From positions 1 to 25,125 of IMG/VR virus record IMGVR_UViG_3300034198_006791: a stretch of 25,125 nucleotides of DNA. One strand, given 5' to 3'. This document shows positions 5,455 to 23,001 of the stretch, one piece after another (position 1 is the stretch's first letter; each line of letters starts with the position of its first letter). This DNA comes from a virus. The notes beneath the pieces are model-generated. The model did no database searches. It was not told the DNA's origin and saw only the letters and a list, made by a program, of their open reading frames with translations. The translations under genes were made by a program, and so were the position numbers.

Positions 5455-5484
5455 ATAAGGGAATATACCTGAGTGGAGAAACAA

Positions 5485-5512: not shown

Positions 5513-5523
5513 TGAGAGCGTTA

Positions 5524-5826
5524 TTAGTCAGCTAATTTAATCCGTGGTTTCCAATAGGTGTTAAAGATCCTCTCAGGTGTACCGAGCCTTGATTGCATTT
5601 GCCGAACTTCTTGAGCAGGATCTTTTGCTCTAATAAATAGACTGCTATCGACTGGAGCACCAGTAATCTTAGCTAAACTAAGGTCAAAGTTCTTAGCGGT
5701 ACGAAATCCATGACCGACTATTGAACGTGCAATAGGGTTTTGACCATCGTAATATCCAGGAGCAATGAGGGAACGAAGTTTGTCAAGTACTGATTTTTCC
5801 TTAGCTTTCTTTTTTGGTGTTGGCAT
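5524..5826 (-). CDS. Small basic phage protein, unknown function
   Basis: 100 residues. It has a Lys-rich N-terminus (PKKKAKEKS), then LRSLIAPGYYDGQNPIARSI, a middle with NFDLSLAKITGAP, and a C-terminal DPAQEVRQMQSRLGTPERIF and W-K-P-R. No domain is recognised. Its ATG overlaps the stop of the 466-aa gene by one base (TAATG), so the two are translationally coupled. The pair lies between two intrinsic terminators, which suggests a shared role. It may be a virion or assembly component, but nothing proves it. Confidence 0.7.
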   Translation of the reverse strand: MPTPKKKAKEKSVLDKLRSLIAPGYYDGQNPIARSIVGHGFRTAKNFDLSLAKITGAPVDSSLFIRAKDPAQEVRQMQSRLGTPERIFNTYWKPRIKLAD

Positions 5827-7226
5827 TAGTTAATTCCAAGTGATTCAGAGATGCCGAATTCTGGTACAGCAATTTTTAGATTTCCAATTTTTGCTGACCA
5901 GTTACCTCCGCGTTTCTTTGCTTGCTCAGATCGAATTCTACGTTTTTCAGCTTCTTGTTGTTGAAGTAGATAGTTTTTATAGCCATCTAAGGTTCCGTCA
6001 CCAAGCCCATCAGGTTGGACGACATCACCGACTACTGGAACTTCTCCTATAGCTGTGTCAGTTACCGTTCCAAAAGCACCTTTCATATCACCAGCTTGAG
6101 CGTCCTGAGCAGCAGCTATAATTCCCGCTCCAATACCTACAAAAGGTAGCACCGACCCAGTTGCACGTCGTAATTTAGACCCAACTTTGATGGAACCTCC
6201 ATCAGAGACAAACTCAAGATTATTCGATTTCCTTGGAACAAGCACAGAGCCTTCTGGAGGTTTTGTTGACGTAACAGGACCACCATTTTTTGCTTGAACA
6301 TCTGGGTGATATTCAGATAAATCACGTTGGTCAAACCCAGCATTCCACATATCGTCAATATTAATCCCATCACCACCCTGAGATCTAATGTAATCATACA
6401 TTGCAACTGGATTTTGACCCTGCCTTTCAAACTCGTTGAAATTCCAGTTAAGCATCTCCAAGGTGTCCTGTGGAATCAGTCTGGAGCTATTTCCAAGTAG
6501 GTTCGTCCCAAGAGCAATCGATACCCATGGGTTTAACGGGGATCCTTTCAGCCCACCTCTGGTAGGAAGATCAAAAGTACTTAATGCTGTTTCAGCCATA
6601 CCAGAGACCTTGTTTGCGGCTACACCCACATTGTCGCCTTCATAGGAAGTAATTGGACGATTTGGATTCTCTGCACTTCTTCCGGCTGCTTGATTAGCAC
6701 CAGCAATCTCAGCACTACCAGAAGCAACATTTTGAGGAGCGCCTCTAGCGGAAGCAGTGAAATGTCCGATATCAACCTTATGTCCGAGTCGTCTACTTAC
6801 CTCTTGATACTGTTTTTGAAGCTGACTCCAATCATAAGCTTCCAGTTTTTTCAGATCTTTTGCAGTGAATCCAAGATTAGCCATATCCCAAGCCTGTTGA
6901 AGCTCAGGGCTGAGAGCGTCTCGAATCTTCCTACCAATAATCTTACCTCGTTCGTTAAAGAAGCTTCGACCCAAAGTAACTTCAAGTTTCTTTAGTGCCT
7001 CTAATTTTGAAAGCTTTTGATCTACAATTAAATCATGCAGTTCACCGATTAATTGACCTGGATCATTGAACCTTTTTGGAATTAAACCAGCTCTTTGGTA
7101 CTGCCTAAAGACATTTAATTTGCCTTGAGGATCCGTTGTTGTATAAACACCTTCCTCAAGAATTCTAGTAAGTTCCCTTGATTGCTTGCTTCTGGCTCTA
7201 GTTTTAATATCTTGTCGTGTTGCCAT
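5826..7226 (-). CDS. 466-aa protein with His motif and glycine-rich hydrophobic segment, unknown function
   Basis: Residues 1-145 are charged and mostly helical. At 149-190, HKVDIGHFTASARG is followed by GANQAAG and ENPNRP. A D-x-G-H-F motif followed by Asn residues is reminiscent of His-Me finger (HNH-type) nucleases, with His155 as possible catalyst and Asn178 or Asn187 as partners. Residues about 356-402 (SVLPFVGIGAGIIAAA, then TAIGEVPVVGDVV) form a small, Gly/Ala-rich hydrophobic stretch of the kind seen in membrane-inserting or toxin-delivery regions. The C-terminus has a charged helix (QQQEAEKRRIRSEQAKKR). The ATG lies 7 bases after a terminator U-tract and lacks a ribosome site. It could be an ejected virion protein, a nuclease or an effector; none is established. 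Confidence 0.65.
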   Translation of the reverse strand: MATRQDIKTRARSKQSRELTRILEEGVYTTTDPQGKLNVFRQYQRAGLIPKRFNDPGQLIGELHDLIVDQKLSKLEALKKLEVTLGRSFFNERGKIIGRKIRDALSPELQQAWDMANLGFTAKDLKKLEAYDWSQLQKQYQEVSRRLGHKVDIGHFTASARGAPQNVASGSAEIAGANQAAGRSAENPNRPITSYEGDNVGVAANKVSGMAETALSTFDLPTRGGLKGSPLNPWVSIALGTNLLGNSSRLIPQDTLEMLNWNFNEFERQGQNPVAMYDYIRSQGGDGINIDDMWNAGFDQRDLSEYHPDVQAKNGGPVTSTKPPEGSVLVPRKSNNLEFVSDGGSIKVGSKLRRATGSVLPFVGIGAGIIAAAQDAQAGDMKGAFGTVTDTAIGEVPVVGDVVQPDGLGDGTLDGYKNYLLQQQEAEKRRIRSEQAKKRGGNWSAKIGNLKIAVPEFGISESLGIN

Positions 7227-7232
7227 TACGCA

Positions 7233-7259
7233 TAAAAAAACCGCCCCTTTCGGAGCGGC
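7233..7259 (-). terminator. Strong intrinsic terminator after the lysozyme gene
   Basis: On the minus strand a G/C-rich 7-bp stem (7241-7247 with 7252-7258, including one G-U pair) has a GAAA tetraloop and is followed at once by seven T residues (7234-7240). It lies 36 bases past the lysozyme stop and just before the ATG of the 466-aa gene, separating the lysis/packaging block from what follows. Confidence 0.88.
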
Positions 7260-7294
7260 TGTATTGTTTACGTGTACTTAAGTGGATAGATAAT

Positions 7295-7912
7295 TTAGGT
7301 TGGTATCCACTTCTTTGTAGCAGCGTTCCATGTCACTGGTTTGCCTTTAAGAACAGCCTTGGTTCCATCCTTGCGGCTATAATTATTAGCTAAAGTGCTG
7401 TTAACTGGTGAAGCATATGGTTGCAACGCAAGTCGTGCTTCTGCTTCTCTACGCCTCTTTAAACCTTCATGTAGACTGCTGCCAGGTTCATCATATAGAA
7501 GTAAAGCTTTAGCTACTTGATAGTGATCTCCAGATTTAATTGCTTTGGTAATAGTGTTGAAATTATTACCACCAAAGAAATTAGGGCCTACGTTGAAGGC
7601 AAAGGAGAGAACAGCAGCCTGAGCATTAGGGTTCAGTTTTTTAAAACCTTGATCCTTAAATACGTTAGAACCATGTTCAATAATTTTCTTTGTTAACAGG
7701 GCCTCGGCATCTTGTCGAGAGATTTGTGCATTTTGTTTTACTGGACGGTTCTGTGCATCAAACTTGAAGCCATAACCGTAAGTATAGGTGTTATCATTTT
7801 CTGGACTGGGATAAGCATGTTCCTTAAATGATTCAAACTCACGAAGCAGAGAACGTAAACCTTTATCGTTAAAACTAACACCAGTAGGGAGTACTGTACC
7901 AAAGTTAGGCAT
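7295..7912 (-). CDS. Endolysin, GH24 (T4-type) lysozyme
   Basis: 205 residues. The catalytic core is residues about 17-165. EFESFKEHAY (25-34) supplies Glu27, equivalent to the T4 lysozyme general acid. TYTYGYGF (42-49) supplies Thr44, equivalent to T4 Thr26, and NPNAQAAVLSFAFNVG (94-109) matches the conserved second-lobe helix. It cleaves the glycan strands of peptidoglycan at lysis. There is no signal peptide, so it should need a holin. The usual Asp two residues after the Tyr is Ser36 here, with a two-residue insertion; Glu38 or Asp40 may replace it. A C-terminal tail (about 180-205, V-T-W ending KKWIP) may be a small wall-binding or folding module. The ATG has GGAG 7 bases upstream and overlaps the 83-aa gene by 8 bases. 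Confidence 0.9.
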   Translation of the reverse strand: MPNFGTVLPTGVSFNDKGLRSLLREFESFKEHAYPSPENDNTYTYGYGFKFDAQNRPVKQNAQISRQDAEALLTKKIIEHGSNVFKDQGFKKLNPNAQAAVLSFAFNVGPNFFGGNNFNTITKAIKSGDHYQVAKALLLYDEPGSSLHEGLKRRREAEARLALQPYASPVNSTLANNYSRKDGTKAVLKGKPVTWNAATKKWIPT

Positions 7913-8156
7913 ATTTCACTCCAGTACGCGGCCTACGACGGTTTGTAGATGCCTTTTCAAGCTTTCCAGTGTTAGGGCCAGTGTGAGAGGCATCTAAGCC
8001 GTCACCATTGCCATATGTTCCAAGATCCCTATTTAACCCATTAGCATCGGTTCGGATCTTTAAACCTTTTCTAGTTTTGTTGTAACGTGCCTGCTGCTTT
8101 AACCTACGTTTGTTGGCATCAGGATTAGCTTTGTAGTATTCTGATGTTCTCATCAT
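7905..8156 (-). CDS. Small basic protein, conserved in T7-like marine phages
   Basis: 83 residues. It opens MMRTSEYYKANPDANKRR, then a long basic helix (QQARYNKTRKGLKIR), then LGTYGNGDGLDASHTG, and ends with SxNRRRP-type residues. From memory, small phage proteins with a basic helix, G-(T/N)-Y-G-N-G-D-G-x-D-x-(S/D)-H and a final S-x-NR occur next to small terminase or lysis genes in many T7-like phages. They are sometimes labelled HNH-like without experimental support. A nucleic-acid-binding role in packaging or assembly is inferred from the charge and position. It overlaps the lysozyme gene by 8 bases and starts 8 bases after the small terminase. Confidence 0.68.
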   Translation of the reverse strand: MMRTSEYYKANPDANKRRLKQQARYNKTRKGLKIRTDANGLNRDLGTYGNGDGLDASHTGPNTGKLEKASTNRRRPRTGVKYA

Positions 8157-8164
8157 GCGTTGTA

Positions 8165-8410
8165 TCAGTATTTACCGTACAATCTTGTTTTAACTAACTC
8201 AGGATCAATTTTGGGGATAACAGTAGCAAGTTTATCTAATGGGTTACCATCGTAGGCAACTCCAGAGATATCATTTTTTGCAAGCCAATCAGCCGCAGCT
8301 TTTAGATCAGCAGTAGATGCTTCACCGGATTTAATCCGATTAAGGAACTCCTGAGTGACAATATTGTGGAGTTCATTAAACATGTCCTCCGTTGCTTTTT
8401 TCTTAACCAC
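8165..8410 (-). CDS. terS: Small terminase subunit (T7 gp18-like)
   Basis: 81 residues, similar in size to T7 gp18 (89). It has an N-terminal helix (EDMFNELHNIVTQEFLNRI), then KSGEASTADLKAAADWLAKNDISGVA, which matches the S/E-A-x-x-D-L-x-A-A-x-x-(F/W)-L-x-x-N-x-I core of small-terminase proteins in T7-like phages. It should recognise the concatemer and load TerL. The gene overlaps the preceding membrane-protein gene by 8 bases. As in T7, it is separated from terL by other genes. Confidence 0.82.
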   Translation of the reverse strand: MVKKKATEDMFNELHNIVTQEFLNRIKSGEASTADLKAAADWLAKNDISGVAYDGNPLDKLATVIPKIDPELVKTRLYGKY

Positions 8411-8660
8411 TTCTCAGCACAATCTGATCTAGTTTGTTTTCAATGCGGATCATGTGATCCTCCATTTTTCTAAGTGCAGTTGAAAGCTCCTCTCGTTGAA
8501 CATACTTTTCAGCAACTCTCAACTCAATCTGAGTAATTTTTTCTTCGATAACGTTCATACGTGAAGACGCTTTACCACTGACACTAATTACTCCCCCTGC
8601 GATGCCAATAACAAGAGTAAAGACTCCTGTTATGATTGCTTCTAACATTATGTGTACCAT
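8403..8660 (-). CDS. Membrane-anchored coiled-coil protein, possible holin or spanin-like
   Basis: 85 residues with one N-terminal membrane segment (about 6-29, LEAIITGVFTLVIGIAGGVISV) followed by a long coiled coil (about 34-82: IEEKITQIELRVAEKYVQREEL, then LRKMEDHMIRIENKLDQIV). A single transmembrane helix plus coiled coil fits a class III-type holin, an XhlA-like accessory protein or an inner-membrane spanin. The position between the C39-like peptidase and terS, near the lysozyme, supports a lysis role. In T7 the holin (gp17.5) also lies next to gp18. An alternative start at Met5 lacks a better ribosome site. Confidence 0.6.
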   Translation of the reverse strand: MVHIMLEAIITGVFTLVIGIAGGVISVSGKASSRMNVIEEKITQIELRVAEKYVQREELSTALRKMEDHMIRIENKLDQIVLRSG

Positions 8661-8672
8661 AATTAAAAGATA

Positions 8673-9221
8673 CTATTGAGCAGGTCGAAATGTCATATAC
8701 CAGCCGGTATTAGGTCCATCTACTTCCCACCTTCTTAACCAATTAGCCCAACTATACCTTACAGCACTACCACCAGATCCAACCTTTACATATCCACCGT
8801 TAATATTATCCAATTCACCGTAGGGATCGTTGAAGACTCCACTGTTACCATCTTCTCCAATGCAGAGCATCCAATGACCATTTCCGGTGGGTTTTGACGA
8901 TGGACCTTTATGAAGTATTCCGGTAGCTACTGGAAACTTATTGGAAATCTCAGAGAGGAGTTTTTGTTTGTTACCATCTTGCCGATACTGGGCAACAACT
9001 CCGTATTCTCGGCAAGCAAGTATTTGAGATAAATACGAAGTCGTATCTCCATATTTAAAAACAGTTCTTAAATAGTCGTCGTCTGCATTACTACCTTTTA
9101 AAGAGTCAGGTTTAAGATACTTAACGGCCATAGCACAGGTTGAGCTAAAGCACATTCGATATCCGTGATCAGTCCTGCTATCAGTTTGAAGGTAGTACTG
9201 CTTAACTGGAAGCAGTACCAT
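8673..9221 (-). CDS. C39-like papain-fold cysteine peptidase
   Basis: 182 residues. Gln12 is a candidate oxyanion residue. MCFSSTCAMAVKYL (23-36) aligns with the C-G-P-A-x-x-A-M helix of C39-type peptidases, with Cys24 as nucleophile. GNGHWMLCIGED (113-124) gives catalytic His116, and VFNDPYGE (129-136) gives Asp132. The complete Cys/His/Asp set suggests an active enzyme. C39-like domains cut peptides, and some are found in phage lysins that attack peptidoglycan cross-links. It lies between two small membrane proteins in the lysis region, so a wall-peptide or envelope role is inferred. Processing of a phage or host protein is the alternative. No signal peptide is seen. Confidence 0.72.
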   Translation of the reverse strand: MVLLPVKQYYLQTDSRTDHGYRMCFSSTCAMAVKYLKPDSLKGSNADDDYLRTVFKYGDTTSYLSQILACREYGVVAQYRQDGNKQKLLSEISNKFPVATGILHKGPSSKPTGNGHWMLCIGEDGNSGVFNDPYGELDNINGGYVKVGSGGSAVRYSWANWLRRWEVDGPNTGWYMTFRPAQ

Positions 9222-9224
9222 ACC

Positions 9225-9428
9225 TCATTCCTTCATACCCTTCACAGCCCTACGAATTCGATCGTCTTCAGATCGATACGGGGCAAGGTACCTAGCCACT
9301 TTAACAATGACTTGGGCAACAGTGTTAGAGCGAATCCTTTTATTGAGACCGATATATTCAGATGCAATGAAAAGCGCAAAAAATGCAAGCGTCTCATACG
9401 ACACTTTAATACCAAACAAAGTAATCAT
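9225..9428 (-). CDS. Small single-pass membrane protein, possible holin
   Basis: 67 residues. Residues about 11-27 (ETLAFFALFIASEYIGL) form a hydrophobic helix, followed by a basic segment (NKRIRSNT), an amphipathic helix (AQVIVKVARYLAP) and a charged tail. Similar proteins with F-A-x-F-x-A-S-E-x-I-G are common in cyanophages, from memory, with no proven function. Size, topology and position 3 bases from the C39-like gene make it a holin candidate, competing with the 85-aa protein. Its stop lies just before the C39-like ATG, so the two are probably co-translated. Confidence 0.6.
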   Translation of the reverse strand: MITLFGIKVSYETLAFFALFIASEYIGLNKRIRSNTVAQVIVKVARYLAPYRSEDDRIRRAVKGMKE

Positions 9429-9445
9429 ATACAGTAGTGGATAGT

Positions 9446-9868
9446 TTAAATAGAAAGTGTAGCCTTAATCTCTTCTGGGCTGTTAGCTGCATCTATATTA
9501 GTTTGAATCCGAGAGTATCGGTCCCTAATCTCCTGACGTTTAGCTTCTACATCAGTGAGGGACTGACCTGGAATTTTCTTGGCAATAATCTCATCTAATG
9601 GTGCAAACTCTTCAGATCGCTTTTGACGACGAATGTTGTGGCCAATAGACTTGCATTTATCCAAGTCATGGTTGATACATCGATCACCTTTAACCCAAGC
9701 GTCACGGAAAGTACGATCTTGTGGAATTAGATCGGAGTCAATAAATTCATATTTTAAACCAACTGGAACATCTTTCTTTGCAATTTGCTCAATTGAAAGT
9801 TCATCAGTTGGGATAATGATAGCTACTCCACCTTGAGGGGTAGAGTAGATGATGCGTTTAGTAGTCAT
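9446..9868 (-). CDS. Fibre-adjacent hypothetical protein with FRDAW motif
   Basis: 140 residues. The N-terminal half is a beta-rich module (RIIYSTPQGGVAIIIP) ending in DRTFRDAWVKGD (51-62). The second half is helical: CINHDLDKCKSIGHNIRRQKR, then LDEIIAK and a final QTNIDAANSPEEIKATL. Phage proteins with a D-R-T-F-R-D-A-W core followed by a helical K/R-rich region are widespread, often next to tail-fibre genes, and have no proven function. A structural or fibre-assembly role is a guess from position. It starts 5 bases after the fibre stop. Confidence 0.68.
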   Translation of the reverse strand: MTTKRIIYSTPQGGVAIIIPTDELSIEQIAKKDVPVGLKYEFIDSDLIPQDRTFRDAWVKGDRCINHDLDKCKSIGHNIRRQKRSEEFAPLDEIIAKKIPGQSLTDVEAKRQEIRDRYSRIQTNIDAANSPEEIKATLSI

Positions 9869-9873
9869 AGCTA

Positions 9874-11034
9874 TTATCGGAAAAAGGAAGCAAATACACC
9901 TTGCGGATCTACAAATGTTCCACCTCCGGCCTCGTTAAGGCAAACAATTCTACAGCTACTAGCAGTAATACCCGAATAAGTATTAGTTGTCCCTGACCCA
10001 GCTCTCATGAGCATTGCGTAACCAGTAGCTGCCGCCATGTAAGTGTTTGTTAACGCTACAGCATAATTTGCGTCAGTCAACGAGGTAGTAAAGTTTACAG
10101 TGTAATCACCGACCCCGTTGTCTGTTATGCTGCTAACATTTAGGTTACCTCTAATAGAGATCGTACCAGTCCCGTTGAAGTTGACCCAAGCCTTTGCTCC
10201 TGCATTTGAGGCAACAAACGCAGTCGTTGCAATCTGAGTTGTGTTGGTACCAGCGGAAGCAGTTGGGGCAGTTGGCGTACCAGTTAAAGCAGGGGAAGCT
10301 AGAGGCGCATAGGATGTAGCTACAAACGCAGTAGTGGCTAATTGCGTCGTATTCGTACCTGCTGCTGCGGTAGGAGCTGCAGGGGTACCAGTAAACGTAG
10401 GAGATGCTAAAGGAGCATAACCTGCAATGGTTGAGCCAGCGACAGTCGTAATAGACCCTGTGAACGTGCCACCAGCCTTAGGCATTGCAGCATTAGCAGT
10501 TGTCTGCGCTGAGGTGGCAAGAGACGATGCAGTGTTGGCTGTGGTGTTTGCTGTATTAGCAGTAGTATTTGCTGAGTTTGCAGTACTTAACGCGCTATTA
10601 GCCGTGGCAGCGATGCCATTTGCAGTCGTCTCCGCATTTGTTGCAGTGGTAATTGCTGTAGCTGAGTTAGACAAAGCTAAGTTGGCAGTAGCAGCAACAA
10701 TAGAGTTATCGAGGCTAGTTACATAGTTCTCTGTTTCTTGTGAAACATAAAGAGATTGCAGAGCATTCTCATTTAAATCCTGAGCCCTAATTGTAGACCC
10801 TGCGTAAAACTCACGGCGTACAGTGTCAGTGTCAGTATCTCGATAAATTTTAATTTGAGCACCATTGGCTGGAGCAGTATTAAATTGAACCGACGTAGCA
10901 CTAGCAAAAGTGAATGCAGTGGTAAGTGAACCATTGACAGACACTTTGACATCAACTAAGTCTAAATATGGAAAAGTAAAAGAGTAGGTAGTGGTAGATC
11001 CATTACCTGTGTAACTATTGGAAGTAACAGCCAT
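9874..11034 (-). CDS. Tail fibre protein (T7 gp17-like N-terminus)
   Basis: 386 residues, shorter than T7 gp17 (553). Residues 1-110 match the T7 fibre attachment domain: the opening Y-T-G-N-G-S-T-T-T-Y-S-F-T-F-P, VKVSVNG, the IKIYRDTDTDTVRREF strand and the closing DLNENALQSLYVSQETENY. Residues about 112-185 are an Ala/Thr/Asn repeat region (TANxA units) that could form a thin trimeric shaft. Two 36-residue repeats follow (206-241 and 242-277), of a kind common in phage fibres. Residues 280-386 form a beta-rich tip (AKAWVNFNGTGTISI), probably the receptor-binding part. The fibre attaches to the nozzle and selects the host. Confidence 0.92.
   Translation of the reverse strand: MAVTSNSYTGNGSTTTYSFTFPYLDLVDVKVSVNGSLTTAFTFASATSVQFNTAPANGAQIKIYRDTDTDTVRREFYAGSTIRAQDLNENALQSLYVSQETENYVTSLDNSIVAATANLALSNSATAITTATNAETTANGIAATANSALSTANSANTTANTANTTANTASSLATSAQTTANAAMPKAGGTFTGSITTVAGSTIAGYAPLASPTFTGTPAAPTAAAGTNTTQLATTAFVATSYAPLASPALTGTPTAPTASAGTNTTQIATTAFVASNAGAKAWVNFNGTGTISIRGNLNVSSITDNGVGDYTVNFTTSLTDANYAVALTNTYMAAATGYAMLMRAGSGTTNTYSGITASSCRIVCLNEAGGGTFVDPQGVFASFFR
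10204..10419 (-). repeat. Tandem 108-bp repeat inside the fibre gene
   Basis: Two adjacent 108-bp units (10312-10419 and 10204-10311) each encode 36 residues starting YAPLASP, then TGTP, GTNTT and ATTAFVA. The proteins are nearly identical, but many third-codon positions differ, which shows an old duplication kept by selection rather than a recent slip. Fibres commonly vary in repeat number, and this may affect reach. Confidence 0.85.
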
Positions 11035-11062
11035 AGTGTTAGTAGTTTATTTGGCTGGTGGA

Positions 11063-14000
11063 TTACTTGTTTTGCATGGTTAATGGGGATACAGTCCCGC
11101 CCTTATTCATTTCATCAGAGAGAACAGTGCGATATTCCTGCTCACGGATATCCCCGTAATTGGACAATTGTATTTCAGCCATGCGTTTTGCCATCCTTAA
11201 GGCATCATCAACTTGGTAGTGGATATTCCGCCATTTTGTAGCATCAACTTCACCACTAGATCTGGCTCTCCTTACTTCTTCCCTAAACTTAGGGCCAGAG
11301 ACTTCTTTCATAATGGTATCCAACTCTTGACGGAAATATGGATTCTCACCAATCAATTTAAATAATTCAGCCCTAGTTTTTGGATCGTAGTCAACACCAC
11401 CTTTTGAAGATGTCATAAATGTGGGGCGACCATCATACTCAATATCCATGAGGAATTTTGCGTATTTGTTTGTAGTTCCGTTTGATTTGAACGGCATAAC
11501 TGCATTCCACGCCCTAGCCCAGAAAGTCTCTCCTCCGTTAATCTTCTCACCCGTTAACCAGTTAGTCTTGTAAGGAAGGCTGCCTTTAGGATCAATAACA
11601 TCTAAATAATTGTTCCTGTTTCTAAGAAGCTGATTGAAGTCCATATCAAGCTCTCTCAGCGAAGGTGACATTATACGTCCAATCTCAGCACGAAGGCCAC
11701 CAAGAGGAGCAAGGTTATTACTAAAGGAAGCAGCCCAACGGTTAGCAGCAGCGGGGTTACCACGCAAAATATCAAAAACAGGTTCTACACCAGCAAGTGG
11801 AGACTTACCAGTTAAAGTAGTGCTAAGCACAAATCCAAATTTCTGAAACATGATACTAAGATCACGAGGATCTAAAGTATCAAAATGATCCATAGTTGTA
11901 GCTACTGCAGCGATCCAATCAGAAATAGGACCAAGGCCATCGTAGCTGTACCACTTACCGTCATTAGCGAGGTATGACCTAGGCTTCCATCCAACACTTT
12001 CCCTGGTCTTCTGACGCTCTTTATCAAAGACTCCATCACCAGTAAGCCGATCATTCATAAACATGAATCCAGCAATACTGACTACAGTAGTTCCAATGGC
12101 TTTACGACCTAGAGCCTCAGCTCTAACCATATCAAATTTAGCCTTAGCATAGGCATCAAACTCGATACCCTTACTAGTTAAAACCTGTCTAATTTCATCT
12201 GGAGTGAAAAGGTCAGCAGACTTATAGGATAAATCGTTGTACTCTCTTAAAAAGACAGACACAGGTGAAAATTTATCCACCATAGCAATCATGTTAATTG
12301 AAGTACGTGGAAACATCATGAATGGACGTATGACTGGAATCTTTTGAATCAGACTACTGAGAGCCCTTGCTCCTTCCATATCAAGGTTCATAGATATCTC
12401 ACGACTAGCAAAATCGATTGCCTTGTCTGTAATCATTTCCCCGTTACCAAACATTTGACGATAAATATCATCCTCAGCTTGCCTCAGTGTTTTACCGTTA
12501 AGGTCTTCTCCACCAGAAATAAACCTTTCATACGTCCTAAAGCGTGCTTCAGCGTTTGCAATAACAGCCCTTGTAAACCCATCAGTTGCTGAAAGAGCAT
12601 TAGTGCCTAAACGTAAAAGTGGATGATTTGCCATATCATCAATATTTTTGGCAAATTCATATAAAATTGAAGGGCCGTCGTTGCCCTCACGTTCCGCAGC
12701 ATCAGCGTATTCTTTTAAAACTTCCCAGGTTTGATCATTCTTGATTGCTAGGTCATCTCGGATAATGTAACTGACACTAGTTGGATCTTGAGATGCCTTT
12801 CTGAAAACAAGTGACATATGAGCAAGACCTTTCTGGAGGGTATCACCAAATGCAGAGTAGGTAAACCACGCTCTCTTTACCGTATCCATATCACCACGCA
12901 TTGCCGCCCCAGCAATAGCGGTAACTGGTTTGAGAAGAAGTAGCGAAGCGTTTCCCCAGAATGCTTTGGCAGTAGTTCCAGCAGCAGACAAGGTGGAGTT
13001 AAAAATGTTTGCCCATGCACCTTGAATGATAACATTAGGGATGTCAGGTTGGGAATCAATAAAAGCTTTTCCAACATTAGTTAAACTTTCTGCTGCAAAA
13101 TTATTTAACTTACTAAGAGTATCTACGTTTCCATCAGTAAGTTCCCATGCAAGTAACAGTGGCTTAAGAAACTCTGGCCTTTCCTTTGATAATTCCCTAA
13201 GTTGGTTTACAGAATTCTTAGTCTTACCAAGAAGCTCTGCCATGTACTGCTTTTTCTGGTTAAGGATATTTTTCTCAAGTTCTTTAGCATCTTGACCAAG
13301 GTTCTGAATCCTTTTCCAGATATTCATGTTGGCAAGCCCACGACCTCGGAGATATGAGGAAATTCCTCTTTCAACCATGAGGAATTCCATCATGTCCAAG
13401 ATCTGCTCTTGAGTTCGTTCAGAAGCATCTGTGCCTTCCATTAAGCGTGAAGCTTCTGCAGTATCGGAAAGCTGCCCAGCCTTCTGTGTAGAGGCTAGAC
13501 CGGAAGCCCTTAGGCTCGATTCTGTATAGTCACGGAGAATTTCTTTTGTAAATTTAGTGACAGCTCCAACACCACGTTCACCTAGGTAGCGAATTTCATT
13601 GCCAAACTCTGTAGTGGATTCAGTTTGGAAGGGAGCAAGCTCTTGCTTCATTTCATCCACACTCATCCGTGAGTTATACCAACGAGCAGCAAGCTCATCA
13701 GTAGACTGCATCAGATCATCGTAGGTAAACTTCTTAGCACCTAGAAGTAAATCAAACTTACCAGCATCATTGATCTGCTGCTCAACACCACGAACAATGG
13801 CCCGTGATTCAGCATTATCTGCATCTAGACCGTACTTCAGGGCAGGCTCACTGATGAAATTACGAAGGCGACCAAAGCTCGTACCAGTGTTGGATTGAAC
13901 CCTTGCAGCGTCACCAATGGCACCAATAGCACCTTCAGGGTCGGTACGACGAATACCAGAAGAAGGTGAATCAGGTACATCATGAATACCAACAACAGGT

Positions 14001-15001: not shown

Positions 15002-17932
15002 TTACTTTGGCAGTAATTTGATTTGAATGGGCGATACTCCTGCACCCGTAGAACCAAAGAGCTGTTTAAAAGCACCTTCAGTGAGATCAAGTAACCTTTC
15101 TCCGGGATTTGATGCAGCCATAACGTCGTTGACTTTAACAACAATGGATTTACCAGTGTCAGGGTTAGTAACCTTGACCCGACGACCCATATATTTCGCC
15201 CTTAATGACGGTTTAACGGCTGCAGTAAGGGCAGTATCGTCAAAGATGTCGCCATTAGCAGTTCTATCGTTAGGTGCACTTTCTCGGTTGTAGTAAGTAG
15301 CTACACCAAAGTCACCACCACCACTTGGTTTCTTCTTAGGTGCTGCATTAACGCCTACTGGCTGTTGACCTCTAGCCAACCGACTCCAGGTATTCTGAAG
15401 AAGCCATAAATTTGCTTCACGATCGATAGTACGAGTTCCCGGCAAATACGCATCAATTGATACGTGAGGACCAGTTGTTGATCCAGTGCGACCTTGAGTT
15501 CCAAGATATGTACCTGGAGCAAGCCACATACCTGGCTTAAGATCTATATTAAGATCGTTAAAATGTGCAACTAAAAGATCAGTCGTTCTACCATTGGGAA
15601 GTGTAGTCCTAATGATAAAATTATTTCCTGAGCTTCTAGGACTAGTGGGCGTCCTTTCAATCCTCCTAGGATCTCTCCTAATCTCAAGAACTTGCGCTCT
15701 ATATGGGAAGTAGAAGGGAACGTTTTCTCGATAAGCCCCGTTCCTATCAGGAATAGCAAAGTCTGTACCACCCTCACCGGGGTCTTGTGCACTTGTAATA
15801 GCAACTCTACCAGTAATAGATCCTGTTCTGGATGAATAGTCTCCAGATTGTGCTCCTAGAGGTGCAGACGATGAAGATTGAGGTTCATTAATAACAGGTT
15901 GATCAGGTTGCTGAGGAGGGTAACGCTTAATGATCTCTTCAAGAGCTTTCCTCACTCTGGGGGTTGGCGGAAGTTTAGTCTTAAGTGTATTGATATCAAT
16001 CGGTTTAAGTCCGTACTTAACCCTTTGAGCATTAATGACTCTAACCTTATTTAAGCCATCGGGATCTGGTCTCAATCCAGCCAGATAGTCAACACGAGCA
16101 TTAGAGATGCCAGCAAGTGCTTCAGATCTGGACATGAGGTTTTGTTCTTGACTGACTCTTTGCCAACCAGAATCAGTACCACCATAATTTCTAATCTTAG
16201 AGTTGATATCTCTTTTCCACTGATTTAAGACCCTAGCTTCACTTTGAACACTGGTACCATAATTAGTAAAAGACCCCTTTTTGAGATCAAAGTAGTATTT
16301 ACTTCTAGGATCCTTTTGTGCCTGTAAGTATTCATTTTGAACGGAGGTGGATGCTTGTTGAGCTGCTGCAGATGCTGGAGTTCCAGTGCCAACTAATTCT
16401 GCATATCTTGACCTAAATAGAGATTGAAGCTCACCAACAACAGTGCCACCAACAGTCTTACCATTTGGACTAGCTTCTACAGCCCTATTAATAACCATAT
16501 CTCTGATTCCATCGAGATTTGGTTTTATTGCCTTATCAGATATTCCACTAACTGTTTGCTCTTCTAAAGCTCTTTGCCCAGCGATACGTGCTTTACCAGT
16601 TAAAGTTGCCACAAAAGTAGGGGTAAGAGCACCCATACTCTTTAAGTTCTCTATTTGAGCTATTTGTTTTTCTTCAAGTTTAGCATCCTTAGAAGTTTCA
16701 TAAAGTGGATCTAAAGCCCTAGCAGAGCCTAAACCATAATTCTCAATAAGAAGACGTTTGGCATCATCCAGATCAGCATTAGTGTAATCTCGCTTATCTA
16801 GGAAGAACTTGACGTATTCTTCAGCAGCCTTCTGACCCTGCCTATTCCTCTCTTCATCACTAATAATTAATTTCTCTCTAGCCTTCTGTGCTTGATAATC
16901 ACGTACATTGTTGTATATTTCTTTCCTACTTAAGACAACAATTTTCCCATTTCCATCCTTAATGGCCATCTTCTTGTTTGTCACTGGATCATCAGTGTTT
17001 AAGAAAATGGTGTTAACTTCATCCATGGTAGTGGTGTTGTTAATCAGTGCATTTTGGAAATTTTTCCAAATCTGCGGGGTAGGAACAAACTGACCTGGGT
17101 TGTTAGGATCTTGAGTTGAACTAAGTGTACTAAGATAGTTATTAGCGTTCTTATCCTCTCCAAAGGTAATCTCGGCCCGTTCAATAGTACTCTGTGCATT
17201 TACTGAAGTCCAAGTATCGTTGGAATTAAGTAAATACTGATCCTCATAAGGACGTACCTTATCATCAAAGTTTTTTACATAATCGACGGGATCTACACCG
17301 TTACTGGCAAGAATACCGTTATCCAATAAAAACCTTTTTTTGTACTCAACCAAAGCAGCTTTTTGCTCTTCAGGATTAAGTTTTGAAAACTCAGCCCTTT
17401 TTTCAGCTAAGCCACCAATGTAATCCCTGGTCTTTTTAACGAGGAACCCACGTAAGTATGCACTTCTCTGCTTGTAGCTGAGAGAGTTTAAATAGTTTTG
17501 GAGCATACCAACTGATGCTGGTGATGCTCCATTTAGCTGTGCCTCTTTACTTAATTGACCAGTTACATTAGAGACAACTTGATCCTGAGCATTACGTGCT
17601 TCATACTGCTTACGAGCTTCGTCTACACCTTCACCACTCAGACCTTTGGCATAATATTCAGCATCAATTTCTTTGTCCCTACGCTCTTGGTACTTATTAA
17701 TTGAATCAAAGATCGTTGAAGAAAACTCTTTGAGCCGTGCCAAGTTGTTTTCTTGATTAAGTTGTTCAAACTTGCTTTGAACTTCAAGGTTGTTTAAAAC
17801 ACCCCTGTTTTGTAATTGAAGACTTTGCAACAGTGATGCGTTGCTCCTAGCAACCTCATCGGTCAAGTTAGGAACAGCTTGTGGATTATATGTGCCTGGA
17901 GCCTGTCCAGGTAGATTCAATTCAAGAGCCAT
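15002..17932 (-). CDS. Internal core protein gp15-like with M23-like and RlpA-like C-terminal domains
   Basis: 976 residues against 747 in T7. Residues about 1-670 are helical, as expected for gp15, a core protein ejected into the periplasm. A Pro/Gln/Ser linker (672-705) leads to a LytM/M23-like domain (about 706-845): GGTDFAIP (721-728), LLVAHF (786-791), then GTQGRTG (811-817) and TGPHVSIDAY (820-829). Asp724, His790 and His823 fit family positions, but the other two zinc ligands appear replaced by Glu720 and Ser825. Residues about 873-976 resemble the RlpA double-psi beta barrel: ATYYN, TANGDIFDDTALTAAV, then VKVTNPDTG and VVKVND (Asp936). Wall modules on gp15 could replace the enzyme missing from gp16. 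Confidence 0.85.
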   Translation of the reverse strand: MALELNLPGQAPGTYNPQAVPNLTDEVARSNASLLQSLQLQNRGVLNNLEVQSKFEQLNQENNLARLKEFSSTIFDSINKYQERRDKEIDAEYYAKGLSGEGVDEARKQYEARNAQDQVVSNVTGQLSKEAQLNGASPASVGMLQNYLNSLSYKQRSAYLRGFLVKKTRDYIGGLAEKRAEFSKLNPEEQKAALVEYKKRFLLDNGILASNGVDPVDYVKNFDDKVRPYEDQYLLNSNDTWTSVNAQSTIERAEITFGEDKNANNYLSTLSSTQDPNNPGQFVPTPQIWKNFQNALINNTTTMDEVNTIFLNTDDPVTNKKMAIKDGNGKIVVLSRKEIYNNVRDYQAQKAREKLIISDEERNRQGQKAAEEYVKFFLDKRDYTNADLDDAKRLLIENYGLGSARALDPLYETSKDAKLEEKQIAQIENLKSMGALTPTFVATLTGKARIAGQRALEEQTVSGISDKAIKPNLDGIRDMVINRAVEASPNGKTVGGTVVGELQSLFRSRYAELVGTGTPASAAAQQASTSVQNEYLQAQKDPRSKYYFDLKKGSFTNYGTSVQSEARVLNQWKRDINSKIRNYGGTDSGWQRVSQEQNLMSRSEALAGISNARVDYLAGLRPDPDGLNKVRVINAQRVKYGLKPIDINTLKTKLPPTPRVRKALEEIIKRYPPQQPDQPVINEPQSSSSAPLGAQSGDYSSRTGSITGRVAITSAQDPGEGGTDFAIPDRNGAYRENVPFYFPYRAQVLEIRRDPRRIERTPTSPRSSGNNFIIRTTLPNGRTTDLLVAHFNDLNIDLKPGMWLAPGTYLGTQGRTGSTTGPHVSIDAYLPGTRTIDREANLWLLQNTWSRLARGQQPVGVNAAPKKKPSGGGDFGVATYYNRESAPNDRTANGDIFDDTALTAAVKPSLRAKYMGRRVKVTNPDTGKSIVVKVNDVMAASNPGERLLDLTEGAFKQLFGSTGAGVSPIQIKLLPK

Positions 17933-17941
17933 AGTATTTTA

Positions 17942-18625
17942 TTAGTATTTACCAATACCTAAACCTTTAAAACCTTCTTTGGCAAGAATATCTGCAGCAC
18001 CACCAACTGCCCCCTGAAGGCCACCCATAAGACCGGCAGCAAAGACGTTTTGAGTTCCCTGGAGATATGGTTTAGCCGGAGCAAAGCCAGGATCAGGACG
18101 GAATGTAAGGGGAAGCCAAGAGTTCATCTCAGCACGACGACGTTGGATAGTCAGTTGATCGTTGCTACTTCTGACCTTTTTGTAAGCATTTGCAAGCGAC
18201 TCTTGGTTGAGAGCCATTTGCTGTCCAGCTTGAGAAGCAGCCATGTTGCTGAGTCGAGTAGTGGAATTACCAGCGGCTAAATCAGACGCTGCAATCTTCC
18301 CCTGACCTCCAAGAAGCTCAGTTAAAACATTGTTAGATTGAATACCCAAGTTACTGCGGATATCATTCAGGTATTCTTGATTCTGCCCAATTCCTTGGTA
18401 GTACGCCTCTTGGCTCGACCTCAACCCTTGCTCGTATTGAAGTTTCTGAGTGTTGTACTGATTGATCTCGCCTTGATATCTAGCAAGGCGCTCTGCCATG
18501 AGCTGCTTATATTGCTGAATTGCTAATCTGTTTGCAGCATTAATCTGGGAGTTAGTATTCTGTGCTCCAGTAATTCCACTAAATATCCCTTGAGCTAATC
18601 CCGGTAGCAACGGAAGTAATAACAT
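17942..18625 (-). CDS. Internal core protein gp14-like
   Basis: 227 residues against 196 in T7 gp14, in the gp14 position. It has a hydrophobic N-terminus (MLLLPLLPGLAQGIF), a long Gln/Asn/Tyr-rich helical region (QLMAERLARYQGEINQYNTQKLQYEQGL), then small-residue helices (ASDLAAGNSTTRLSNMAASQAGQQMAL) and a Gly-rich tail. In T7, gp14 is ejected and forms an outer-membrane channel; the composition fits that role. The ATG lies 47 bases inside the end of the gp13-like gene, an unusually long overlap, but no later start fits as well. Confidence 0.82.
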   Translation of the reverse strand: MLLLPLLPGLAQGIFSGITGAQNTNSQINAANRLAIQQYKQLMAERLARYQGEINQYNTQKLQYEQGLRSSQEAYYQGIGQNQEYLNDIRSNLGIQSNNVLTELLGGQGKIAASDLAAGNSTTRLSNMAASQAGQQMALNQESLANAYKKVRSSNDQLTIQRRRAEMNSWLPLTFRPDPGFAPAKPYLQGTQNVFAAGLMGGLQGAVGGAADILAKEGFKGLGIGKY

Positions 18626-19049
18626 AGTCTAATTCAATGAATTTTAAATTGTTTGGTCCGAAATAAATCTCTCGTTGCTTCTTGAATCCAAGAAACCTCA
18701 GTAACTTGAGATGAGTAGTATTCCTTGCATCACACCTACACCACAAGTACGGTTCAGATCGACCTTCAATAAACCGCTTAGCTTCTCTTGCAAATGTCAG
18801 TGGGTATTCATGAATACGAGAAGTACACAGCATCCACACTTCACAGTCATCAGTGATTCCAGCGATACCAGCTAAAGTACCGTCTGGAACAACAAACGTA
18901 TAACATTTTCCTCTTAAGGAAAGTAGAGGGATGGCGTACTTAGGTTCTACACCATGACCCTCTACACATTCTCGATAATCATCTTGCCTTAAATTTGAGG
19001 CGACCTGATAAGCTGCCTCCAAGGTAGATAGTGCAACAAAGTCAGACAC
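18579..19049 (-). CDS. gp13-like GNAT-fold protein
   Basis: 156 residues, slightly longer than T7 gp13 (138), and placed like gp13 between gp12 and gp14. The order resembles T7 gp13 and degenerate acetyltransferase folds: DDYRECVEGHGVEP (18-31), a beta strand around LAGIAGI, CEVWMLCTSRI (69-79), the helix TFAREAKRFI (84-93) and NTTHLKLLRFLGF (109-121), equivalent to the C-terminal GNAT helix. No clear acetyl-CoA loop (Q/R-x-x-G-x-G/A) is seen, so it is probably not an active acetyltransferase. T7 gp13 is needed for normal particles and was once listed as an internal virion protein. It overlaps gp12 by 8 bases and gp14 by 47. Confidence 0.68.
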   Translation of the reverse strand: MSDFVALSTLEAAYQVASNLRQDDYRECVEGHGVEPKYAIPLLSLRGKCYTFVVPDGTLAGIAGITDDCEVWMLCTSRIHEYPLTFAREAKRFIEGRSEPYLWCRCDARNTTHLKLLRFLGFKKQREIYFGPNNLKFIELDYVITSVATGISSRDI

Positions 19050-22000
19050 GGGTATAATACCGATTATTTAGATCTCCTTCCCAAGTGACTGAATAAATAG
19101 TTGCTGGTGATGGATGGGTTGAAGTAATACTGATTGAAGTATCTGTGTTGCGTGAATAGATGGGTACAGTCTGAATGTACTTTTCTTTTAATGCAACAGT
19201 ATCAGCGACGTACTGATCATACAGAGGAACGGCATACTCTTCAGTGTAATCATCATGTCCTAACCTCTGCAACGTGGTTGCGTAAATTCCCGAATCACCA
19301 AAGTTAATTTTGATTCTATGGAGAATCAGCGATGACCTAGTATCAGAGTTAACACCTTGCTGAGTTGGAGTCTGCTTGTAGATAGTTGGCAGTTTAACTG
19401 ACATCTCAAAGGTATAACCAACGAGAAGTCTGGTAGTTGTCCAATCACCATCAAGAACTAACTTCAACCCATTTGAATCATCTGGTAAATACTGAACAGT
19501 AGGTTTAGCAGCAAGACCAGCGTACTCACCCTCACTAAGACTGTAAGCGACCAATTCATTTGTACTGTAATACCCAAAGGGGACATAAAAGGAGGTTGTA
19601 TCAGTAACTGAACTATAGGTCATCTGATTGGAATAGATGATCTTAGAGCTATCCAGGTGGACATTGAAATTATAGGCATTACTATTTTGAACAAAAGCTG
19701 ACCACTCTTGAGTTTTTAGATCAAATTTCTGTATAGTAATGATGTCCTTACCAGTGATCGAGTCGATATTTTTTAGAACTACATAGTAGCCATCAATCAG
19801 CATTGCATGATGAAGAAGAGTACCGGTTAGTTCCCATCTAAACCAAGCACCTTGAACACGACGTTCTCCACTTTCAAAATACCTAAACACCCACAACTCA
19901 TTAGATCCAGTAGTACCGAGAAATAAACTACTGTAATCCTTGGTTGAGATAATTTGATCAATACCATCTGGGAGAAGAGATGAGATAATCTTGCTTTGCT
20001 CGATAATTTCAGCTTCAGCATTTGTTGGGATCTTAGTGATCTCATACATTGCCGTATTCTTACCAGTATCGGCTAGAAATGCAATACTTGTTCCAAGGCC
20101 AACAGGAGAAGTCCTACTGTTGAACTTGTAATTACTCATAGTAGTAATTCTAGCGGTCTCTGGCCCAAGAATATCATTGTCAGTGTAGATCAGATACTGC
20201 TCTGTGTCTCCAAAAATAACCAGACCGACTTTCGCAGAATACGCTGCCCTCAATGACGCTGGTTTTGTTGATCCGACTGCAATATCAATAGGGTCAGAGG
20301 AAGTTGCTGTAAGAGCGGTTTTAGCAAAGAAATTGAAATAATCTCCAGGGCGAGACATAATGACATTCTCATCACTAAACAGGACAAACCTGTTCCTAAA
20401 GAGCGTCATGCCTTGTATGTATCGACCTACAAAGCTTGGGACTGGGTTTGTGATGTCATCCCCTATAAGGCGGTCTTCCCACTCCACAGGGCTTACTACG
20501 AAGCTACCGTCTGGGGTTCTGACAATCTGATGGGGCATTGTTGCCGAGTTAAGTTTGGTGGAAACTCCCGGTTGATAGGTTTCTTCCCACACACCCTCAC
20601 CAGAAACACGAACTGAACCAGTCGTAGTTGCTACGCCGGTTTGATTAATCGTTGTACTGCTATTAAGATTAGAACCAGTTTTAACGCTGAATTTAAGATA
20701 ATAGTCATCTTCTTGTTCACTACTATTGACTACTTTAACTATATAACCATCCTTACATTGTGTTGGCAGACGAGTAATATTGTTAAGTTGATCAGTAAAA
20801 ACATTTAGGAGCTGAGCTTCAGCGGTTGAGATTGTGAACGGTTTTGTGTGAGAAAGGTAAATACCGTTTCCAATGATTTCAGTAGTAAAGCCTGTCGTAG
20901 TACTATCAATTGCAGTCTTAATATCAGTTAAAATGTCGTAAGCCTTAAGTACAGTAGTGGAGGTAGTAGAAGTGGCTGTAGGTCTAATTAAACCTGCAGA
21001 AGCATAAACTTCCGTGATTTTACTTGCGCCTATGACAATCTCGTAAGCCTTACCGTTCATGGTAACTTGAACTCTATCTCCCTTTTGCCAGCCTTCACCA
21101 CCAATCTCAAGCGTAGCTTCAGAGATGTACCTACAGTAATATCCTAAAGCTGCATTTTTATAGCTGTTAGGTATTGACTGGCCAGTGGTAACTAATTCAA
21201 ATCTAAGGTTTTGTCTAGTTAAAGCTGGAGATGCAGGATTCTTCTTTGTCCAAACACCACCAATTTTTGCATAACTATGTCCGTCTACAGTTTCAATCCA
21301 ATCAGCATCAGGATAAACGCTGCCAGTAGATGGATTAACGTCATAAACATTACTACCAACAAATGGACAGGCTCCATCAGTGGAAGTCCAATCTGTAGTT
21401 ACAACATTAATGGACTGTGCAGAATAGACTTTAGTAGAGGTTTGACTAGTACTATAATAATTCAGGTTAAGAGCATATTGTTTCCCGTATGCTATCTGAA
21501 GCACTTCAATGAACGCTTCATATGGCCTTGCAGTTAAGTCCGATCTAGACATCGAGACGGGGCCGGGACCAACTAAAGAATTCTTGTTTGCTACAAAGGT
21601 GAAATCATTGATAGTCAAAACCCTCAGATCATCTGGGTCTTGATGTTTAAAGTACGAAAGGATGCCTGTTGAAGCAATTTTTTCGTCGTCATAAATACCG
21701 CTATAAACAGGTATACTGGTAGCAGTAGTGTATGTATTATCAGACTTCAGTTGGAATGTAATAGTCTCATTATCCTCAAATGAAGCATCAGTTGTTGGAT
21801 TAACAGTAACGAGCTTTTCGGTCTCACCAGCACTAAAGTTAACTACACGATTAACTGCAGTTGGACTTACCGTTCCATCACCACTAATTGTATAATCAAC
21901 GTTAATGGTAGCAGTTCCGCCAACAGTATAATAAACAGTGGTTGCACCAGTAGTTGTACCTAGTCTTTGGAATTTGTAGATAATGTTAGGCGTACCGTCC

Positions 22001-23001
22001 TCATAGACAGCAGATGGATCAACAGTTAAAAAGATGTAGGGATCTGTTCCAGCAACTTGGGTATAGGGATCTAAATAAATTCCACACTTAGAAGCTTCTG
22101 TAGAGTAAGTAGTGTATGCAGATGCAGCCGCTGTTTGAAGTGCAGGGTATTGAGACTCTAATGTGGTAATAGAACTCTGTAAGGCTGAGGTTTGAGAGGC
22201 TATGTAAGCACTAGAATAGCATCTCCTCCAAGCATACAACTTGCCAGTTGTAAGCTGATTTCTGGTAAGAGTTGATCCACTTGACGTGTATGAAGTTGGC
22301 TTGTAGTATTGAACATCTTTAATAAAGGATCCCTGAACTACAGTCTGGTTCGCATTTGCTGATGGCTTGTTAAATTCAGTTGATACACCATCGCTAACCA
22401 CTACGCCAGTAATTTTTATACTGTTACCCTGCTCGTATGGATTATTGGAAGTATTGTCCTTGTAGTTCCAGATTTCCTCGCAACTTAACTCATCTATCTT
22501 ATCTGCTAAAGCTTGCTCGGCAGCATCAATCTCCTGCAACTTAGCATCCGCTGCTGCTTTGGCAGTAACGTATGCTTCCATTGCAGTTTTGAAACTACTA
22601 GCACTACATGCGGGAGCAATCGGTTTAGATAGGGTGTTTGCAGCTAAAATAGATGAGATGAAACTTTGTCTGATAGCATTATCATCCTTATAGGGGAGTG
22701 CTTGGTATCTGACAACTCTAGGGGTTCCATCTAATGCTGACCAGATTTCAACTTCCCCATTAGTTTTAATTCTACCAACATACTGCTCGGTGGCATCCCT
22801 ATCGATTGCAAACCATCGACCAGTAGAATCATTACTAATTGCCCCACCAACTAATTGAGCACCTGGACGCTTCTGAAGACCAGTAGTAACATCAAGGAAT
22901 ACATTCTTCGCATCCTTAAGTTGACCGGGAAGAAGTAACTCGTCAGGTTGTTGTGAGATGCCATAAATTAGGCTAGGAATAGTTTGTGTGACTGCGGCCA
23001 T
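19042..23001 (-). CDS. Tail tubular protein B / nozzle (gp12-like), enlarged with Calx-beta-like insertion
   Basis: 1319 residues against 794 in T7. The core is clear: GISQQPDELLLPGQ (14-27) and GLQKRP (41-46) at the N-terminus, LTINDFTFVANKN (462-474), and WEDRLIGDD (841-849) with SFVGRYIQGMTLFRNRFVLFSDENVIMSRPGDYFNFF (856-892). Extra sequence lies between residues about 125 and 452. It has two coiled-coil-like stretches (137-175 and 268-300) around a Calx-beta-like domain (about 321-437) with VYEDG (332-336), GTATINVDYT (362-371) and VNFSAGETEKLVTV (387-400) ahead of FEDNETITFQL (408-418). Further enlargement lies at about 500-830. The nozzle closes the tail and carries the fibres. Its ATG overlaps the gp11 stop (TGATG). 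Confidence 0.93.
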   Translation of the reverse strand: MAAVTQTIPSLIYGISQQPDELLLPGQLKDAKNVFLDVTTGLQKRPGAQLVGGAISNDSTGRWFAIDRDATEQYVGRIKTNGEVEIWSALDGTPRVVRYQALPYKDDNAIRQSFISSILAANTLSKPIAPACSASSFKTAMEAYVTAKAAADAKLQEIDAAEQALADKIDELSCEEIWNYKDNTSNNPYEQGNSIKITGVVVSDGVSTEFNKPSANANQTVVQGSFIKDVQYYKPTSYTSSGSTLTRNQLTTGKLYAWRRCYSSAYIASQTSALQSSITTLESQYPALQTAAASAYTTYSTEASKCGIYLDPYTQVAGTDPYIFLTVDPSAVYEDGTPNIIYKFQRLGTTTGATTVYYTVGGTATINVDYTISGDGTVSPTAVNRVVNFSAGETEKLVTVNPTTDASFEDNETITFQLKSDNTYTTATSIPVYSGIYDDEKIASTGILSYFKHQDPDDLRVLTINDFTFVANKNSLVGPGPVSMSRSDLTARPYEAFIEVLQIAYGKQYALNLNYYSTSQTSTKVYSAQSINVVTTDWTSTDGACPFVGSNVYDVNPSTGSVYPDADWIETVDGHSYAKIGGVWTKKNPASPALTRQNLRFELVTTGQSIPNSYKNAALGYYCRYISEATLEIGGEGWQKGDRVQVTMNGKAYEIVIGASKITEVYASAGLIRPTATSTTSTTVLKAYDILTDIKTAIDSTTTGFTTEIIGNGIYLSHTKPFTISTAEAQLLNVFTDQLNNITRLPTQCKDGYIVKVVNSSEQEDDYYLKFSVKTGSNLNSSTTINQTGVATTTGSVRVSGEGVWEETYQPGVSTKLNSATMPHQIVRTPDGSFVVSPVEWEDRLIGDDITNPVPSFVGRYIQGMTLFRNRFVLFSDENVIMSRPGDYFNFFAKTALTATSSDPIDIAVGSTKPASLRAAYSAKVGLVIFGDTEQYLIYTDNDILGPETARITTMSNYKFNSRTSPVGLGTSIAFLADTGKNTAMYEITKIPTNAEAEIIEQSKIISSLLPDGIDQIISTKDYSSLFLGTTGSNELWVFRYFESGERRVQGAWFRWELTGTLLHHAMLIDGYYVVLKNIDSITGKDIITIQKFDLKTQEWSAFVQNSNAYNFNVHLDSSKIIYSNQMTYSSVTDTTSFYVPFGYYSTNELVAYSLSEGEYAGLAAKPTVQYLPDDSNGLKLVLDGDWTTTRLLVGYTFEMSVKLPTIYKQTPTQQGVNSDTRSSLILHRIKINFGDSGIYATTLQRLGHDDYTEEYAVPLYDQYVADTVALKEKYIQTVPIYSRNTDTSISITSTHPSPATIYSVTWEGDLNNRYYTRV

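Follow-up and report, generated by a model that had tools for sequence, protein, structure and literature searches.

Short-tailed phages must pierce the cell wall with injected proteins, and in T7 the cutting domain lies on gp16. Several arrangements of these proteins have been described. In T7, gp15 forms a periplasmic tube and the N-terminus of gp16 cuts the wall, and in K1E and K1-5 the peptidoglycan-lytic domain is carried by the gp15-like protein and not by gp16, which has been termed domain swapping (PMC8954989). The octameric gp15 equivalent of PhiM1, whose structure is solved, ends in a lysozyme-like domain (Gly718-Ser903), and BLASTP and DALI served to assign an internal endolysin-like domain to its gp16 equivalent (PMC11440229). 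In the hub protein gp15 of cyanophage A-1(L), an "endoglucanase" and a peptidase domain each hydrolysed cells of Anabaena, and single substitutions of conserved catalytic residues abolished the activity or led to poor expression (PMC10966104). The present analysis concerns the gp15-like ejection protein encoded in the IMG/VR virus record IMGVR_UViG_3300034198_006791, whose positions 1 to 25,125 (25,125 bases, the window) belong to a T7-like phage, hereafter the source phage. The C-terminal tail of this protein joins an M23-like domain to an RlpA-type double-psi beta-barrel. The tail is probably a swappable wall module, in which the barrel would cut glycan as the DNA enters, with the M23-like part helping to grip the wall or to position the barrel.

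Identity of the protein and its tail domains

The genes on the minus strand follow the order gp12 nozzle, small gene, gp14, gp15, gp16 and gp17. Residues 12-648 of the gp15-like protein, its body, score 170.7 bits (hmmsearch) with a profile of 42 other gp15 bodies from which the source phage was excluded, against 6.8 for the best of 1000 shuffles; T7 gp15 is not recognised by this cyanopodovirus profile of 42 sequences. The structure of the body was predicted alone, from its own alignment, with a mean predicted local distance difference test score (pLDDT) of 69. The first three matches of the predicted body in a Foldseek search of the PDB are T7 gp15 chains, with weak E-values (0.025-0.049). 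In VIA-align, the first seven matches are ejectosome chains of PhiM1, T7 and cyanophage A4 (the pre-ejectosome 9k2v) with Z of 7.0-7.6, the top one being a PhiM1 chain (Z = 7.6) and the T7 gp15 chains reaching 7.0-7.5; these lists omit some families, and absence from them is no evidence. Taken together with gene order and homology to the gp15s of relatives, these weak fold matches leave a firm identification of the protein as a cyanopodovirus gp15 ejection protein, here from a T7-like phage. The terminase DNA is about 80% identical to that of S-CBP3, gp16 is 38% identical to that of S-CBP4, and 49 of the 55 phage records matching gp16 have Synechococcus, Cyanophage or Prochlorococcus in their names; for these reasons the phage probably infects cyanobacteria. 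A second, near-identical contig (99.92% over 13,256 bases; hereafter the twin) encodes a 100% identical gp15 protein.

The barrel matches the Pfam family DPBB_1 (PF03330) over residues 876-970 with an E-value of 3.5e-8 and 34 bits, above the gathering score of 28.8. A phmmer search of the PDB matched it to PA4485 (4avr; E = 5.4e-7), and the NCBIfam family rlpA (TIGR00413) gave 45.2 bits, below its whole-protein cut-off of 82.15. In the tail structure, predicted from an alignment with four barrel rows, the barrel superimposes on 4avr with a Z of 13.5 over 94 residues (root mean square deviation 2.0) and on residues 284-392 of the A-1(L) hub (8kea_A) with a Z of 13.2; expansins and kiwellins are among its fold matches. 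The barrel profile retrieved the A-1(L) hub domain from the PDB with an E-value of 7.4e-29, obtained with a profile alignment that included five misplaced M23 rows. On this comparison of profiles and models, we read the A-1(L) "endoglucanase" domain as being of the same barrel type as that of the source gp15. Asp936 aligns with an Asp that is kept in 33/33 compared phage barrels, the five misplaced M23 rows being excluded from all barrel column counts. Going by the motif, we take this column to be that of the catalytic Asp of Pseudomonas aeruginosa RlpA. The latter protein is active and has the catalytic Asp, whereas the Escherichia coli RlpA, with a Ser instead, is inactive (PMC9712689).

The M23-like domain spans residues ~705-845. 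Pfam Peptidase_M23 (PF01551) by itself matches residues 781-828 with an E-value of 0.012 and 16.2 bits, below the gathering score of 28.7. By hhalign, residues 768-835 align to the M23-like tail of the S-CBP4-type gp15s (a profile of nine gp15s) with a probability of 95.8, an E-value of 7e-9 and 37% identity over 67 columns, and the same profile scores the source gp15 23.2 bits against a maximum of 11.3 in 2000 shuffles. A resemblance by chance, which the Pfam E-value alone would have allowed, is ruled out by the hhalign and shuffle results. S-CBP4 gp15 itself matches Peptidase_M23 at an E-value of 2.1e-9. A BLASTP comparison of the M23-like region with the M23 domain of S-SRP01 was not significant in a plain run and gave an E-value of 0.002 under other settings. 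The predicted fold matches LytU, LytM and lysostaphin with Z of 8.3-8.7, which are moderate values for a region predicted with low confidence. The zinc ligands of M23 peptidases are a His, an Asp and a last His. In the source gp15, the first His is replaced by Glu720 and the last by Ser825, and Asp724, His790 and His823 are kept. The S-CBP4-type domains have a Gln at the first and a Ser at the last of these positions, and zinc ligands are lost in all the M23-like tails of this type that were inspected. Since the domain is carried by 13 of the 116 gp15s surveyed below (nine with SLT, three alone and one with the barrel) and its ligands are lost wherever they were inspected, the sequences suggest a non-catalytic role, such as wall binding.

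The gp16 of the source phage has no Pfam match at E ≤ 1, and in particular none to SLT. The T7 control matched SLT in gp16 at an E-value of 1.7e-31 and no Pfam domain in gp15. Pfam found no wall domain in 20 gp16 rows from the source phage and 17 named phages, and no wall-type module was detected in the 226 gp16s of the viral-contig survey, where T7 gp16 scores as a control. The gp16 profile retrieved only chance-level matches from the PDB, mostly histones.

An earlier reading made from the DNA letters of the window (the original prediction) had anticipated much of this. It proposed a gp15 some 230 residues longer than that of T7, with a proline-rich linker followed by an M23-like region lacking two zinc ligands and an RlpA-like double-psi barrel, and a gp16 without a transglycosylase motif. 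The protein has 976 residues against the 747 of T7 gp15 (a difference of 229), the linker is visible in the sequence, the searches above agree on both domains and on gp16, and the alignments bear out the residues that it had listed (Asp724, His790, His823 and Asp936) and the two lost ligands, likewise lost in the S-CBP4-type relatives.

Exchange of gp15 tails among relatives

A tblastn search with the source gp15 gave only barrel matches among phages (3 records) and only the twin among viral contigs. Relatives were therefore reached through gp16, in three scans of viral contigs, each limited to at most its best 80, yielding 226 loci; a gp15 lay upstream in 171 of them and was complete in 157, which left 116 gp15s after dereplication. 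With the profiles built here, a recognised wall-type module is present in 97 of these 116. The tails comprise glucosaminidase with permuted M23 (28), lysozyme-like (16), SLT with the M23-like domain (9), a Phage_lysozyme2 type (8), SLT with permuted M23 (6), SLT (5), SLT with M15_3 (5), Hydrolase_2 (5), class X (5), SLT with X (4), the M23-like domain alone (3), M15_3 (2) and the M23-like domain with the barrel (1). The 19 gp15s without a module divide into seven that are tail-less, with 757-796 residues, and 12 with 858-983 residues; Pfam scans of eight of the latter gave five with a wall domain, one of which scored slightly under the cut-off, and three with none. Among 18 gp15s from the source phage and the 17 named phages, Pfam likewise found several kinds of wall domain, and none in some. 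The tails of the named phages include SLT and M23 in S-CBP4 (SLT at residues 743-848, then the M23-like domain at 889-1034), glucosaminidase and M23 in S-SRP01, SLT_3 in S-CBP3 and Hydrolase_2 in S-RIP2. The class names LysGH, X_permM15, M23perm and M23deg were coined in this analysis, and the E-values of these profiles are inflated because they were iterated on the survey set itself. Pfam found no domain in survey locus L034, the sole LysGH member scanned alone; in PHROGs, L034 and L030 match an endolysin family.

Some of these tails have features of their own. Those of L023 (6960-9842), L024-L027, L032, S-CBP1 (L003:17182-20145) and DSL-LC07 (L014:189-3182) look like circularly permuted M23 domains, in which the normally last motif stands at the front and the C-terminus follows closely on the middle His motif. 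The class X tails in the gp15s of L022, L033, L059, L063, S-CBP3 and S28C3 have an HGG..H.H motif followed by a GxAIDxP-like motif and may be permuted M15-like peptidases; Pfam gave no match in L022, L059 and S28C3. In Plectonema phage Pbo-yong3 (L187), the protein in gp15 position (4117-7140) has a strong canonical M23 match (2.8e-22), and the one in gp16 position (7140-11555) has a C-terminal ADP-ribosyltransferase-like domain (E = 2.4e-9).

The gp15 tails commonly carry wall modules, and these are often swapped among relatives. On a gp16 tree of 63 rows, the distribution of the 15 tail architectures implies 23 changes or more, against a minimum possible of 14 and a shuffled mean of 45.6; the tree is a quick one, reconstructed without a mixture model and with long-branch warnings, its tail labels were assigned in the analysis, and it holds S-CBP4 and L076, which are one sequence, as separate rows. 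Near-identical gp16s accompany unlike tails: L071 and L072, with lysozyme-like tails, branch beside S-SBP1 (L007) and L075, with Hydrolase_2, on end branches of 0.015-0.03. Similarly, L060 (SLT with the M23-like domain) neighbours L063 (SLT with X). The source gp16 branches alone, its nearest relative being 46% identical. Compared with the S-CBP4 type, the source tail has the proline-rich linker in the position of SLT and the barrel after the common M23-like domain. Viral contigs contain at least 512 relatives of the barrel, and of the 80 best of these, that of the twin alone adjoins a gp16. The GC content at third codon positions is 0.27-0.34 in the tail against 0.18-0.42 in windows of the body, and this base composition gives no sign of a recent import of the tail.

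The original prediction had held that the wall modules "moved to gp15". The modules do sit in gp15 and none was detected in gp16, but a move in this phage is not shown and we reject it, as a wall tail on gp15 is the rule among the relatives (97/116). The wording misleads, because such tails are general in relatives and were already published for K1E/K1-5 and PhiM1.

Possible roles of the tail in wall passage

Several scenarios may explain a tail of this composition. In the one that we favor, the gp15 body would build the periplasmic tube during DNA entry, as its family membership suggests, the barrel would take over from SLT in cutting the glycan of the cyanobacterial wall when gp15 reaches the periplasm, and the M23-like domain, being zinc-less, would hold the wall or position the barrel. 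The analyses establish the two domains with their order and their location in gp15, the loss of the ligands and the variation in tails between relatives. We infer every step of this scenario, that is, the packaging of gp15 in the virion, its ejection, the catalysis by the barrel, the wall binding by the M23-like domain and the replacement of SLT by the barrel. One transglycosylase fold would then have replaced another. A broader proposition, for which we see the chances as about even, is that the end of gp15 serves cyanopodoviruses as a hot-swap seat for wall modules, with a turnover far more rapid than that of the surrounding ejection machine. In the source phage, an RlpA barrel, as an unrelated transglycosylase fold, would have replaced SLT, and the zinc-less M23-like domain would have stayed on as an anchor to the wall; permuted M23-like domains would occupy the same seat in other phages.

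Several observations weigh against the scenario of a cutting barrel. The fold matches of the body are weak (Foldseek E-values of at least 0.025; Z of 7.0-7.6 for a helical model), and such Z values prove little alone because the protein is helical. The predicted tail has a mean pLDDT of 62, with blocks of ~30-75 in the M23 part. Within the barrel, a Glu that is invariant in 33/33 phage barrels is Asp895 here, the equally invariant Gly of the NDxG motif (33/33) is Met938, and a position that is His in 20/32 is Val906; because of these departures from conserved positions, the barrel may be weak or inactive. A barrel in gp15 was found only in the source phage (two near-identical contigs), the combination with the M23-like domain being present in 1/116 gp15s. 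Moreover, because seven of the 116 have no tail, some relatives can apparently enter without one. Finally, gp16 may hide a wall-enzyme fold that is invisible to profiles, since the endolysin-like domain of the PhiM1 gp16 equivalent was assigned with BLASTP and DALI.

Some of these observations would fit a tail whose two domains are both non-catalytic, with an expansin-like or wall-binding barrel; the enzyme that opens the wall would then lie, unrecognised, in gp16 or in another part of the particle. The changes of Glu to Asp, His to Val and Gly to Met at conserved positions, the loss of zinc ligands in the M23-like part, the expansins and kiwellins among the fold matches of the barrel and the tail-less gp15s (7/116, 757-796 residues) all point that way, as does the internal endolysin-like domain in the PhiM1 gp16 equivalent (PMC11440229). 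Nevertheless, the Asp of all 33 compared barrels is kept, the Pfam score of the barrel exceeds the cut-off, the A-1(L) relative is lytic (PMC10966104), and a wall domain is found in 0/20 gp16 rows by Pfam and a module in 0/226 gp16s, and we regard a wholly non-catalytic tail as rather unlikely.

A tail with a mainly structural function, in core packing or in contact with gp16 or DNA, and with its wall resemblance a mere relic, would also agree with the lost zinc ligands and with the degenerate M23-like domain being the sole tail of 3/116 gp15s. In PhiM1, moreover, the lysozyme-like gp15 domains line a groove, beyond which there is density that possibly represents DNA (PMC11440229). Yet unrelated wall folds alternate at the same seat, a pattern more readily explained by selection for wall action than for packing, and a mainly structural tail seems quite improbable. 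Even less credit can be given to an M23-like domain that is still an active peptidase using another metal site: Asp724, His790 and His823 are kept, but the first His is Glu720 and the last is Ser825, and both are likewise lost in the S-CBP4 type.

If the tail is a swappable wall module as favored here, this group of cyanobacterial viruses appears to use the end of gp15 to pierce the wall, with a wall module that varies from phage to phage. One may then ask whether host wall chemistry is the force behind the swaps, and whether any wall enzyme will do for entry or a specific one is required. Candidates for wall enzymes that are carried in the virion and act on cyanobacteria can also be drawn from the survey.

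Gene neighbourhood and comparison with described systems

The features of the locus are collected in the table.

Table. Features of the gp15 locus in the window (positions in the 25,125-base stretch)
Feature	Positions	Strand	Evidence
gp15-like ejection (internal core) protein, 976 residues	15002..17932	-	open frame between gp14-like and gp16-like genes; body profile match
gp15 body, residues 12-648, common to cyanopodovirus gp15s	15989..17899	-	hmmsearch; Foldseek of predicted body
Proline-rich linker, residues ~661-704, where S-CBP4-type relatives have SLT	15821..15952	-	sequence
M23-like domain, canonical motif order, zinc ligands lost	15398..15820	-	hhalign, shuffles, predicted fold
RlpA-type double-psi beta-barrel (DPBB_1), residues 876-970, including Asp936	15023..15307	-	Pfam, predicted fold
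gp16-like ejection protein, 1305 residues	11063..14980	-	phrog_6651 internal virion protein, E 1.5e-289
gp14-like internal virion protein	17942..18625	-	phrog_15746 internal virion protein, E 4.5e-6; synteny

Elsewhere in the window, the endolysin seems to be split on the minus strand between a C39-like peptidase gene (8673-9221) and a Phage_lysozyme gene (7295-7912) with three small genes between them. Both match parts of one PHROG family, phrog_3617, and S-CBP1 has a C39-like domain and a glucosaminidase lysozyme fused in one protein. The gp12 nozzle protein (19042-23001, minus strand; 1319 residues) shows a Calx-beta match over residues 348-425 that is weak and does not reach the cut-off (E = 5e-4).

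The source phage shares with T7 its gene order and, presumably, the roles of gp15 and gp16, and differs from it in that T7 has SLT at the N-terminus of gp16 and a gp15 without a Pfam domain. K1E and K1-5 are closer in having the wall-lytic domain on gp15 rather than gp16, but theirs is described as a lysozyme activity, in contrast to the RlpA-type barrel and M23-like domain found here. PhiM1 has another tail fold, and an endolysin-like domain in its gp16 equivalent as well. The gp15 of S-CBP4 has a homologous body and a homologous zinc-less M23-like domain, and differs in having SLT ahead of that domain and no barrel. The A-1(L) hub resembles the source gp15 in uniting a barrel and a peptidase (M23-like by our analysis) in one virion protein; however, it is a myophage baseplate hub and not an ejection protein, and in it the barrel comes ahead of a peptidase that is active. 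The order of M23 followed by DPBB is also that of two proteins of ~1020 residues from survey loci L111 (7493-10558) and L129 (7700-10759), which, unlike the source gp15, have no gp16 neighbour and a circularly permuted M23 domain with its ligands kept. In L129, a two-sequence canonical M23 profile matches both halves of the domain in swapped order, at 2.4e-5 and 6.9e-8. With wall domains on gp15 already on record for K1E/K1-5 and PhiM1, this kind of arrangement is a known one. No report of an RlpA-type barrel in gp15 or of tail swapping in cyanopodovirus gp15s was found in the literature searched, which included few subscription journals, and, as far as that literature goes, the novelty of this locus and its relatives lies in the barrel in gp15 and in the extent of the exchange across the cyanopodoviruses.

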